A DNA stretch of 6,030 nt from Anaerolinea sp. (GTDB taxonomy: Bacteria > Chloroflexota > Anaerolineae > Anaerolineales > Anaerolineaceae), in contig PNNU01000224.1 in assembly GCA_013824385.1 (NCBI GenBank), forward strand, positions 1 through 6,030. Reading direction: 5' to 3'. Below the pieces are notes generated by a model that was given only the letters and a program-made list of their open reading frames with translations, ran no database searches and was not told the origin of the DNA. How positions within the stretch are numbered: the first letter of the stretch is position 1; each line of letters starts with the position of its first letter. The translations under genes and the position numbers were made by a program. This document shows positions 2,926 to 6,030 of the stretch, in pieces.

Positions 2926-3363
2926 TCATGATCCATCATCATAGTGTTTATCCACCTCTCCCATGATCACAGCATCTGGTAGGTCCTTCACGCTCGTCCT
3001 TGTAATCATTCTAAAACATCATCAACATTGCCCGTGTGGGCATAGCAACGGCATCGATGTAGAGCACCGGCATCCCTGAATGAATTTCAAATAGAGCTTT
3101 TTCGAGATTCCCACACAATCGAGGATCTACTGGCGCATGTCCATTCGGGATTCTCTTTTTTGACCTGCTTCGAAATAGGCCAATGCAAAGCCAGCAGTAA
3201 GTACACTGGGGAAAACGGGGGCGATCGTCTCTCGGCCTGAGTGAAGGTCGGCGATGGTGGGCACAGGCGGGACTTCCACTTAGCTCTAATAACCGAGGAC
3301 CAAGATTGCAATCCGCTGGGCGATCAGATCATTCGTAGACGCAAATGTAGCGCCGAAATAATC
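2926..3363 (-). pseudogene. Decayed coding region downstream of the ImmA-like gene
   Basis: Protein-like sequence runs on the minus strand but is broken. One frame reads SDSDYFGATFASTNDLIAQR, meets two stops near 3285-3295, continues as PVPTIADLHSGRETIAPVFP and on to YFEAG, then stops. The coding look then shifts to another frame with NGHAPVDPRLCGNLEKALFE and GMPVLYIDAVAMPTRAM, and returns to the first frame for RTSVKDLPDAVIMGEVDKHY before a TGA at 2926-2928. A run of six A's near 3160 is a likely frameshift site. The first frame already overlaps the 3' end of the ImmA-like gene, as the next gene of that operon would. No usable start codon or family is recognised. It might be a lost third gene, or sequence that only looks coding by chance. 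Confidence 0.4.
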
Positions 3364-3364
3364 G

Positions 3365-4252
3365 CTATCGCTTAAACCGGGGTGCCCATGAGTCTCTTAG
3401 GTCTTCCTCCTCCTCAAGCTCCTCGGGATCCTCCGCAAGTGTAAGTAGCGTCAGACGGTATCCATCGCTTTGGTGAAGAACCTGTTCGTAAATCATCGGG
3501 GATCGCCTTCCACGCTGCATGGAGAGCCAAATACTGCCATCCAGTTCTTCCTGTTCTGAAGGGACCCCTTTTGTAAGATCAGGTTTATGAGTGAGTGACC
3601 CCTGTGGCACTGGGTTTCCACACCTCACGTCAAGATAGGGAAAGTCCTCGGCTTTGTAAAACCTTAAAATACGGCCATTCTGCGAAACAAGTATTGCGAG
3701 CGGCTCGTCCTGAACATCGACGTATCGGCGAGCGGTAGCTTCCTTACTGGTTTCATAACGCCGGGCAAGAGAAAGAATGTGCTCGATGTCCGCCCCTTTG
3801 TGAAGACGCAAATCCTTACGAAAGTGTGGAAGGGGCATCAGCAAGGAGGCAGCGAAACGATTGGCTTCAAGTTCCATGCGGACAGCACGACCTTGTTCGC
3901 GCGCAGACGTTAGCAACATATCATCAGAAGAGCAAAGAAACTGGTTGCCGCTTATCGGTCTGTGGGAAGGACAAAGGAAATGGCCCAACTCATGGCCGAT
4001 GGTGAAGCGGCGACGCTGTACAGGAGTAACCATGTTAACTAAGATGAAACCCTTCGATTTCTCGACATCGGTTACAAGCGCACCTTCATATCCCTCGGTT
4101 TCCAGCTCCTTAATGCTAATGATGTCCAGCATCAGGGCTATTTCTTCAACGGGAACAGGGACTGGAAGATCGGGTATTTTACAGATGATTCCCTCCACGA
4201 TCCGCTCGGGTGAAGCAAAATCAGCTATATCGAATCTATTAATTTCTATCAC
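3365..4252 (-). CDS. ImmA/IrrE-family zinc metallopeptidase (295 aa)
   Basis: The gluzincin motif HELGH at residues 87-91 gives zinc ligands His87 and His91 and catalytic Glu88. The downstream ELEANRFAASLLMP (127-140) supplies the third ligand, Glu129, in the typical E-A-N-x-F-A setting of the ImmA/IrrE (DUF955) family. Residues about 180-275 form a second, probably sensory domain like the GAF-like part of IrrE, and the acidic tail ending in SWAPRFKR is common in these proteins, so the gene looks complete. The start is GTG 4252, overlapping the TGA of the repressor gene (GTGA), with AAGGAG at 4258-4263 spaced 5 nt. Family members cleave a partner XRE repressor (ImmA-ImmR, IrrE-DdrO, CapP-CapH). 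The immediate upstream XRE gene is the inferred substrate here, in the cytoplasm. Confidence 0.9.
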   Translation of the reverse strand: MIEINRFDIADFASPERIVEGIICKIPDLPVPVPVEEIALMLDIISIKELETEGYEGALVTDVEKSKGFILVNMVTPVQRRRFTIGHELGHFLCPSHRPISGNQFLCSSDDMLLTSAREQGRAVRMELEANRFAASLLMPLPHFRKDLRLHKGADIEHILSLARRYETSKEATARRYVDVQDEPLAILVSQNGRILRFYKAEDFPYLDVRCGNPVPQGSLTHKPDLTKGVPSEQEELDGSIWLSMQRGRRSPMIYEQVLHQSDGYRLTLLTLAEDPEELEEEEDLRDSWAPRFKR

Positions 4253-4578
4253 TTTTTCTCCTTTGTCTGCTCCCTTAGTACTTTCATAATATTACGGATT
4301 GTTTGTCGATCATTACTTTCAAGCCCTTTAAAGTCACGATACATCGTAATGAGTTCAGGATCTTCACCGATTACGTTAGGGTTCTCACCAACCAAGGTCG
4401 CAATAGGCACATCAAAATATCTTGCTAGTCCCGAAAGCAATTCAACGGATGGATTTTTGCTCTTGCCGGTCTCCAATTCCCAGATGTGAGCCTTTGACGC
4501 GCCAACCGAATCAGCTACATGCTGGAGAGATGAACCTTTCCGCAACCTCAATTCTTTCAGCCTTGAACCAAGCGCCAC
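4249..4578 (-). CDS. XRE-family helix-turn-helix repressor (109 aa)
   Basis: Residues about 4-62 are a Cro/C1-type helix-turn-helix: a first helix with RLKELRLRKG, then LQHVADSVGASKAHIWELET as the DNA-reading part, then SVELLSGLARYFDV. The C-terminal part (about 65-109) is probably a dimerisation and cleavage segment. The start is GTG 4578, because AGGAGG at 4585-4590 sits 6 nt upstream of it. The ATG at 4593 lies before that Shine-Dalgarno sequence and has none of its own. The stop overlaps the start of the ImmA-like peptidase gene. The palindrome at 4650-4665 in the divergent control region is the obvious candidate operator, so the protein should repress the plus-strand ubiquitin-like operon and possibly itself. 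Confidence 0.9.
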   Translation of the reverse strand: MALGSRLKELRLRKGSSLQHVADSVGASKAHIWELETGKSKNPSVELLSGLARYFDVPIATLVGENPNVIGEDPELITMYRDFKGLESNDRQTIRNIMKVLREQTKEKK

Positions 4579-4618
4579 ACCACACCTCCTCATTTCCGTG
4601 TCTGATTTATCAGATGGA

Positions 4619-4627
4619 ATTGTAACA
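4619..4627 (-). promoter_or_regulatory. Extended -10 promoter of the XRE-ImmA pair
   Basis: On the minus strand TGTTACAAT is an extended -10 (TG-N-TACAAT). At 17 bp upstream there is only a weak -35 (TTTCTA, 4642-4647), which suits an extended -10 promoter. Transcription would start near 4612, leaving about 33 nt before the GTG start. The polymerase site would overlap the plus-strand -35, so the two promoters probably compete. Confidence 0.5.
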
Positions 4628-4633
4628 TAACGC

Positions 4634-4662
4634 TTGACAAATAGAAAGAGTAAGATTAATCT
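4634..4662 (+). promoter_or_regulatory. Sigma-70-type promoter of the ubiquitin-like operon
   Basis: A perfect -35 TTGACA (4634-4639), a 17-bp spacer and a weak -10 TAATCT (4657-4662) precede a leader of about 70 nt to the ATG at 4740. The -10 is buried in a 16-bp palindrome. A strong -35 with a weak -10 covered by an operator is typical of a promoter kept off by a repressor. Confidence 0.55.
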
Positions 4663-4665
4663 TAC
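4650..4665. promoter_or_regulatory. Perfect 16-bp palindromic operator
   Basis: GTAAGATTAATCTTAC reads the same on both strands. It covers the plus-strand -10 and lies just upstream of the weak -35 of the XRE gene, so it is well placed as the binding site for a dimer of the XRE protein. Nearby are a direct repeat of AGATTAAT (4653-4660 and 4675-4682, 22 bp apart), a direct repeat of CATAACG (4626-4632 and 4666-4672) and inverted TGTAACA / TGTTACA (4621-4627 and 4683-4689) nearly centred on the palindrome. Confidence 0.65.
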
Positions 4666-4739
4666 CATAACGGCAGATTAATTGTTACAGCATGGCGGAG
4701 GCCGTGCTTGCCGAAAACGAATCTTGTAGGAGGTTTATC

Positions 4740-5543
4740 ATGGGAAACAAAGACGTTGAGGAAGTGAAAGAAAGCGGTTTTGAGCAGGCGGAAGCCCATC
4801 TCAAAAAGGCGGAAGCCGATTTGAAAGCGGCCAGGATCGCCGAAGAGGCTGCGGAGCATGAGGTCGAAGAAGCACTGCAAGAAATAAAGGAGGCAAAGGC
4901 TCATAACCATCATGAAATTCATTTCACCGTCGATGGGGAGCCGGAGGAAACGGAAAGGAAGGAGATGACGCCCGATGAAATCATCCGTGAATTTGGCAAG
5001 AAAGACCCGTTAACCAATTACCTGGTTCAGATCAAAGGGGGGCATCAAACGGTTAGCTACAGAGATAAAGGCAGTGTACCTATTAAGCTCCATAATGGGA
5101 TGCACTTTCAGATCATTTCGCTGGAGCCAACCCCGGTCTCGGACGGCCCAATCCGTACCGGTGTCGAGCTATTTGTCAAAGGTCTGCACGATCTCGGTTA
5201 CAACCCGATGGCGCTGCCTGGAAAACCCGATCACATAGTCATTGATTACGAGGTCCTAACCGGCCGCTTCTCTGGTCAGAAGGTACGACACGGTTTTGTC
5301 GTGCCTTCTGATTTTCCTGTGACGGTACCGAGCGGCCCGCATGTCTCTCCTCATATTCACCCCATTAATACAGGTGGCGGTCATCCCACGGGAGCAGTGC
5401 ACCACACGCAAGCTCAACCCTTCGAGGCTGGGGCAGGTGGCGCTTGGCAATACTGGTCACGCCCCTTTCCCAATTGGGGCCAGAGCAAAAAAACGGTCGC
5501 AGCCTATATGAGCCACATTTACCGTTTGTGGGACTCACAATGA
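4740..5543 (+). CDS. Coiled-coil / ubiquitin-like (Multi_ubiq-type) / E2-like fusion protein (267 aa)
   Basis: Three parts are visible. Residues 1-55 are a charged Ala/Glu/Lys helix, likely a coiled coil. Residues about 57-130 look like a beta-grasp domain of the bacterial multiubiquitin type: strands HEIHFTVDGEPEE, helix TPDEIIREFG, then strands ending in GMHFQIISLEP. Residues about 138-267 resemble prokaryotic E2 family E: a start like TGVELFVKGLHDLGY, GFVVPSDFPVTVPSGP, HPIN (207-210, recalling the HPN of E2 enzymes), then a His-rich segment and WQYWSRPFPNW. There is no cysteine anywhere, so it cannot form a normal E2 thioester, and the ubiquitin-like domain has no free C-terminal glycine. 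The start is ATG 4740, with AGGAGG at 4728-4733 spaced 6 nt; the ATG at 4692 has no such site. The stop overlaps the start of the JAB gene. A scaffold or non-catalytic role in a ubiquitin-like pathway is inferred. Confidence 0.8.
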   Translation: MGNKDVEEVKESGFEQAEAHLKKAEADLKAARIAEEAAEHEVEEALQEIKEAKAHNHHEIHFTVDGEPEETERKEMTPDEIIREFGKKDPLTNYLVQIKGGHQTVSYRDKGSVPIKLHNGMHFQIISLEPTPVSDGPIRTGVELFVKGLHDLGYNPMALPGKPDHIVIDYEVLTGRFSGQKVRHGFVVPSDFPVTVPSGPHVSPHIHPINTGGGHPTGAVHHTQAQPFEAGAGGAWQYWSRPFPNWGQSKKTVAAYMSHIYRLWDSQ

Positions 5544-6030
5544 GCCGGGCCGCACGCAGTGTGGCGATGACAGAGGAGGTGGCTTGCGTGGCACGCACCC
5601 ACCTCTTGCGTGCTGATCGCCAAGAGGATCTGTGTTTCGCCCTGTGGTACCCCAGCCATGGCCAGCACCGTACAACCGCCCTCATCCAGCGATTGATCCT
5701 CCCGGGAAAAGGAGACCACAATGTCCATGGCAATGCGAGTTTCAAACCAGAGTATTTTGAGAGAGCTCTGACCACAGCAGCCAAGGCTCGTGCCGGACTG
5801 GCATTGCTCCACAGCCATCCATGTGGGCGAGGGTGGCAAGGCATGAGTGATGACGATGTTAATGCCGAACATGGAAACGCCAGTGCTGTCTTCGGTGCGA
5901 CACGCTTACCTTTTGTAGGTCTAACGCTAGCAGGCGACAGCTCATGGAGCGCGCGCTTTTGGGAACGAGCAGCACCTCGGGCCTATTCACGTGTTTGGTG
6001 CTCCACGGTCCGTATTGTAGGGAACCGCCT
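5540..6030 (+). CDS. JAB/JAMM-family metallopeptidase, N-terminal part, cut by the window edge
   Basis: The ATG overlaps the previous stop (ATGA) and has no clear Shine-Dalgarno sequence, so translation is probably coupled to the E2-like gene. About 163 codons are present and the frame is still open at 6030. The JAMM zinc site is clear: a candidate catalytic Glu29 in RQEDLCFALW, then HSHP (His91, His93) and, after CGRGWQGM, SDDD (Ser103 and Asp104-106). The gap to the Asp is slightly longer than in the textbook motif if Asp106 is the ligand. JAB proteins remove or trim ubiquitin-like proteins. In bacterial ubiquitin-like operons, JAB domains often sit beside or are fused to a ThiF-type E1. 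The visible end (RVWCSTVRIVGNR) lies past the JAB core, where such a fusion could begin, but this is not shown by the window. Confidence 0.85.
   Translation, partial: MSRAARSVAMTEEVACVARTHLLRADRQEDLCFALWYPSHGQHRTTALIQRLILPGKGDHNVHGNASFKPEYFERALTTAAKARAGLALLHSHPCGRGWQGMSDDDVNAEHGNASAVFGATRLPFVGLTLAGDSSWSARFWERAAPRAYSRVWCSTVRIVGNR

Follow-up and report, generated by a model that had tools for sequence, protein, structure and literature searches.

A Probable Bub-type Ubiquitin-like Conjugation Operon beside a CapH-CapP Regulator Pair in Anaerolinea sp.

The stretch under study, hereafter the window, comprises 6,030 nucleotides of contig PNNU01000224.1 of Anaerolinea sp. It carries a gene in which a ubiquitin-like (Ubl) domain is fused to an E2-like domain, followed by a gene with a JAB domain, and, divergent from these, the genes for an XRE repressor and an M78/ImmA metallopeptidase (Table 1). 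We consider it likely that the locus is a Bub-type Ubl conjugation operon (Ubl-E2 plus JAB-E1) that is repressed by CapH and released when CapP cuts CapH; the identity as a Bub (bacterial ubiquitination-like) operon is, taken by itself, held with similarly good confidence. In the proposed mechanism, the JAB domain would cleave the Ubl-E2 protein behind Val-Ser134 and the E1 part would activate the Ubl at its new Val-Ser end; the cysteine-free E2 would pass the Ubl via Ser240 to target proteins, and its removal from them may also fall to this JAB domain.

The assignment to Bub was drawn from three matches. The full-length JAB relative of locus L002 runs on into a ThiF/E1 domain (ThiF, 4.1e-29), and the best solved match of this JAB-E1 protein was Citrobacter BubCD (5.3e-23). 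The predicted Ubl domain fitted the bacterial multi-ubiquitin proteins, as a Bub modifier should, and the E2 domain, which is of the Prok-E2_E type, fitted BubB as well as eukaryotic E2s. The BubB match came from a second structural comparison (VIA); the Foldseek list for the Ubl-E2 model was headed by multi-ubiquitin proteins (5.0e-3), and BubB was absent among its best 50 matches. Foldseek against the PDB returned no match to the Ubl-E2 model at E ≤ 0.001, and the viral fold library none at the same limit. When the PDB was searched by sequence, neither the Ubl-E2 protein nor its alignment brought up a Bub entry. On the window proteins, Pfam gave the E2 only below threshold (0.041) and detected no JAB; the family membership of both was taken from relatives and structure.

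A total of 248 homologues of the Ubl-E2 protein were obtained at E ≤ 1e-3 among 1168 candidates, while phage records, plasmid records and viral contigs yielded no relative of it at the limits used. In the AlphaFold2 model, a disordered linker (residues 131–138, pLDDT <50) separates the Ubl and E2 domains. The JAB motifs HSHP and SxDD were present in 12/12 rows of the JAB alignment. The open reading frames (ORFs), the ATGA in which the Ubl-E2 stop and the JAB start overlap, the homologues and the fold matches all bore out the sequence-only reading, made before this analysis, of a Ubl/E2-like gene overlapping a JAB gene, and the Ubl fold on which that reading depended was present in the structure prediction. 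Where the window has its N-terminal helix, the Ubl genes of L007 and L009 carry extra N-terminal sequence of the multi-ubiquitin kind; L042 belongs to the other branch, and the charged stretch at the N-terminus of its separate Ubl reads much like the one in the window. In L007, a metagenome-assembled genome, the JAB-E1 gene appears as two ORFs in different frames (10603–12105), either because the gene is truly broken or through faulty assembly.

Bil, type II CBASS and Bub systems share E1, E2 and JAB parts, and Cap2 was likewise among the E1 matches (2.2e-7), as would be expected if the operon were a relative of Bil or type II CBASS and not of Bub. We regard this as very improbable, given that BubCD was the best match by many orders and that the JAB is fused to the E1 and the Ubl to the E2. 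PADLOC (2023) has no family for either the Ubl-E2 or the JAB protein, and the scan of six window proteins recognised no CD-NTase, the locus being cut at 6030. Bil has its parts in four individual genes and its E2 depends on Cys, whereas the Ubl-E2 of the window is a single gene and free of Cys; type II CBASS combines a CD-NTase with Cap2 and Cap3.

The working end of the Ubl is predicted to be Val-Ser, freed by the JAB domain. In several relatives the gene is split, and these natural splits hint at the mature end without experiment. The separate Ubl genes end in TPVS and a stop in 5/5 cases (L001, L003, L004, L010 and L013), and those of the actinobacterial plasmid loci end in Val-Ala and a stop in 7/7, three of these loci being closely related; the Ubls of L023 and L024, annotated only as hypothetical, were recognised by position and sequence. 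Within the BubCD group of the window, a Val-Ser or Val-Ala end was found in all 12 separate Ubls. Among the fused homologues, Ser134 was kept in 121/121 rows and Val133 in 118/121, residues 136–139 were variable and often gapped, and the distant fused protein of L020 has Val-Ala at the Ubl-E2 junction. In the PDB, the Citrobacter construct has 229 as its last residue; provided that the numbering is the same, its relative L028 has Gly at this place. A programmed stop read-through between Ubl and E2 was considered for L001, L003, L004 and L010 and rejected in favour of separate genes: the split loci show one or two stops and then a new ATG where E2 homology resumes, and the E2 of L010 is out of the Ubl frame.

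The candidate active-site residue of the E2, Ser240, was constant in 121/121 rows. The most constant E2 positions across both Bub branches were the serine (28/29) and the arginine (26/29) of the WSR motif, and 10 of the 29 E2s had no Cys at all. Bub conjugation reportedly proceeds via oxyester intermediates by serine-based transfer, as described in one paper; a cysteine-free E2 with a constant Ser240 is compatible with such conjugation.

The two regulators matched the CapH and CapP family profiles. The peptidase gave PADLOC capP at 4.5e-58 and Pfam M78 at 1.3e-15, and its top PDB match was the solved CapP 7t5t (3.3e-16), in whose alignment HELGH is kept and the FLC cysteine is placed against that of FQC, which we take to be the regulatory cysteine of CapP. 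The XRE protein matched PADLOC capH (1.2e-22) and the helix-turn-helix (HTH) protein 7t5u (1.1e-9). Its stop overlaps the peptidase start as GTGA, and alternative ATG starts are possible for it at 4593 or 4668. The PADLOC and PDB matches and this junction thus agree with the divergent, overlapping XRE and ImmA-like genes of the CapH-CapP kind that had been proposed from the sequence. The coordinates then given, 4249–6030, take in the operon and the XRE gene and omit the peptidase gene except for its first bases. According to PMC13373217 (EMBO J 2026), single-stranded DNA activates CapP, and CapP cleaves CapH.

The region between the divergent genes contains a promoter-like site directed towards the Ubl-E2 gene, overlapped by a perfect palindrome that is a candidate CapH site. 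When the 161-nt intergenic stretch was shuffled 5000 times by mononucleotide, 19 of the shuffles contained a gapless palindrome as long. The operon of L007 is preceded by identical hexamers with the same spacing, and a looser promoter-like pattern was seen in 6/8 further loci searched, not in L009 and L011; both comparisons were made without a chance control.

The scan of genome contigs gave zero loci with the single Ubl-E2 protein and 11 (L001–L011) with the alignment. Further genome searches were sparse, with a match at 1e-3 in 6/396 and 4/385 genomes, several of them weak. An M78 gene, assigned to its locus by hand, adjoins the operon in 9/9 genome loci with enough flank (the sequence of L005 starts within the operon, and that of L010 breaks off in the upstream gene), mostly from families other than CapP proper. 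An HTH part was recognised in 7/9 (L001, L002, L003, L004, L007, L009 and L011); L006 has an ORF that by reading resembles the HTH ORF of L011, and the ORF beside the peptidase of L008 matched no Pfam family. In the 21 plasmid loci (L023–L043), an annotated ImmA/IrrE gene lay near the operon in 10 and a HigA-type gene in 4. Pfam M78 was found in L029, L030 and L043, not in L025. Homologous operons that consistently lack the XRE-ImmA pair, an outcome that would have undone the earlier proposal, are thus not what the genome loci show; of the plasmid loci, 7/21 have neither ImmA nor HigA annotated near the operon.

The same neighbours bear on the possibility that the XRE and M78 genes form a switch of their own, of a toxin-antitoxin system or a mobile element, and are no more than neighbours of the operon. 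PADLOC assignment of the genome-locus neighbours (10 proteins, 7 loci) placed them in several families: L007 matched CapP and CapH as strongly as the window did and L008 matched CapP, while the peptidase of L002 was nearer RmrA, that of L009 nearer PD-Lambda-2_B, and those of L001 and L006 only weakly CapP-like. PD-Lambda-2_B-like neighbours were also present in L024, L025, L029 and L030, and the three of the four HigA-type proteins that were scanned with PADLOC all matched this family. The M78 neighbours are codirectional, not divergent, in L006, L009 and L011, the plasmid loci without such a neighbour point the same way, and the tRNA-Leu 3' end at 119–145 suggests an island. Set against this, every flanked genome locus has an M78 gene beside the operon, the profiles identify the pair in the window as CapH-CapP, and the palindrome lies over the operon's own promoter-like site, and we therefore judge an independent switch to be unlikely. 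Two arrangements among the relatives were also observed. In L002 (2666–4288), 6 bases separate the RmrA-like HTH-M78 gene from one whose PIN-domain match is below threshold (0.0036), an arrangement that resembles a toxin-antitoxin pair; in L041 (3039–8936), nucleotidyltransferase and SAVED-domain genes come after the Bub operon, in the manner of CBASS.

A tree of BubCD was built from 35 rows with IQ-TREE and midpoint rooting; the window row fills 32% of the columns. The 21 rows whose Ubl ends in Val-Ser or Val-Ala clustered in one group (support 100/98), in which the seven actinobacterial rows were set apart (100/100) and the window fell within a 14-row group (97/92) of 13 Val-Ser ends and one Val-Ala end (L020). 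The 12 loci bearing a DUF6527 gene, which we take to be BubE, fell outside the Val-Ser/Val-Ala group. L031 joined that group's side and L038 the other, both lacking DUF6527 and having other Ubl ends; the positions of the long rows L031, L033, L037, L038 and L040 are unsure. No DUF6527 gene occurred in the 18 branch loci with downstream sequence (L001–L011, L023–L026, L029, L030 and L043), L013 and L020 being left out of the count because they end too soon, whereas 12 of the 14 other fetched plasmid loci had one; four of these built the model. For the weak genome matches L021 and L022, too, there were DUF6527-like matches. The branch features, namely the lack of DUF6527 and the Val-Ser or Val-Ala end, are probably real and possibly as yet unreported. 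We lean slightly towards a separate DUF6527-less Bub branch, in which the Ubl would end in Val-Ser or Val-Ala instead of Gly and the JAB-E1 would have to cut the Ubl-E2 before serine conjugation.

Several points weigh against the proposed system. Asp135 is fairly constant as well (102/121), so that there is no sharp drop in conservation past Ser134. Downstream of residue 134, Cys is most often found at residue 243 (26/121 rows), three places past Ser240, and it is from its conservation that Ser240 is put forward as the candidate active site. The generic promoter scan reported no promoter in the intergenic region, and L007 has a different, gapped inverted repeat where the window has its palindrome. 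The window holds the JAB part, the ThiF/E1 part being outside it and found in relatives; since these fuse it to the JAB domain, an E1 could well follow beyond 6030. Lastly, according to PMC13373217, Bub operons have so far not been found to protect against phage.

The operon could serve to tag proteins in a stress response and not in phage defence. This use is compatible with the proposed mechanism, and we give it a somewhat less than even chance. PMC13373217 leaves the use of Bub operons open. A DNA-damage switch suits either use, and restriction, anti-phage dCTP deaminase or CBASS-like genes near 4/21 plasmid loci (L026, L036, L037 and L041; counted without a background control) favour defence. 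The pairing of the XRE-ImmA module with Ubl-E2 and JAB had been put forward as the most novel feature of the window, a view that has to be given up: the association of the CapH-CapP switch with Bub operons is already published, CapW or CapH+CapP being associated with 219/544 Bub operons (one joint figure) in PMC13373217. The window is one further case of it. If true, a Ser- or Ala-ended modifier would widen the substrates accepted by ubiquitin-like E1 enzymes, and a two-gene operon with a Cys-free E2 would offer a compact system for studying serine-based conjugation.

Table 1. Features of the operon, its regulators and the control region, in window coordinates.
Feature	Positions	Strand	Remarks
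capP-like M78/ImmA metallopeptidase gene	3365–4252	-	GTG start at 4252; HELGH motif; downstream Cys (FLC)
capH-like XRE repressor gene	4249–4578	-	GTG start after AGGAGG
Promoter-like TTGACA-17-TAATCT	4634–4662	+	Directed towards the Ubl-E2 gene
Perfect 16-bp palindrome GTAAGATTAATCTTAC	4650–4665		Covers the -10 box; candidate CapH operator
bubAB-like fusion gene, 267 aa	4740–5543	+	AGGAGG at 4728–4733; no Cys in protein
Long N-terminal helix, residues 5–55	4752–4904	+	AlphaFold2 model
Ubl domain (one beta-grasp), residues 59–134	4914–5141	+	Ends Thr-Pro-Val-Ser
Predicted Ubl release site Ser134/Asp135	5139–5144	+	Separate Ubl genes of relatives stop here
E2/UBC-like domain, residues 139–267	5154–5540	+	Ser240 in WSR, candidate active-site residue
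bubCD-like gene, 5' part: JAB/JAMM domain (HSHP...SDDD)	5540–6030	+	Open at window end

The remainder of the window was also inspected. Positions 119–145 on the minus strand hold the 27-nt 3' end of a tRNA-Leu including CCA, with no tRNA gene called by ARAGORN; the same 27-nt string ends a complete tRNA-Leu (CAG) in the viral contig L044. This segment looks like an integration site, and the window may thus sit on the border of a genomic island. A 572-aa protein encoded at 575–2293 on the minus strand had a weak C39-like peptidase match (0.02, Pfam); it was considered as a linked effector, which is unsupported, as no homologue was found at E < 0.01 among the ORFs of L001–L011. The G+C content was about 35–39% in 1–2400 versus 44–58% in 3001–6000, perhaps reflecting a mosaic of different origins.

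Compared with the Bub operons represented by Citrobacter BubAB and BubCD (9ea4, 9ea8 and 9eae), the locus has the same gene order, the Ubl and E2 in one chain, as implied for Citrobacter by the continuous PDB numbering of BubA (155–229) and BubB (239–359), and, in the relatives of the window, the JAB fused to ThiF/E1. It differs in that the window Ubl ends in Val-Ser while the Citrobacter construct ends at 229 (Gly in L028 on the same numbering), in the absence of DUF6527 from all 18 testable relatives of its branch, in its single Ubl domain preceded by an N-terminal helix, where the known operons have several Ubl domains, and in its separate, supported place in the BubCD tree. The actinobacterial plasmid operons (Ubl, E2-like and ThiF; L023–L026, L029, L030 and L043) form a neighbouring group in that tree and likewise have no DUF6527 and an HTH and/or M78 neighbour, but their Ubl and E2 are separate genes and their Ubl ends in Val-Ala. 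With CapH+CapP (7t5t and 7t5u), the window shares overlapping genes for an HTH repressor and an M78 peptidase, divergent from the operon they would control, as well as the HELGH motif and the nearby cysteine of the peptidase; here the pair adjoins a Bub operon instead of CBASS, an arrangement already in print (PMC13373217).

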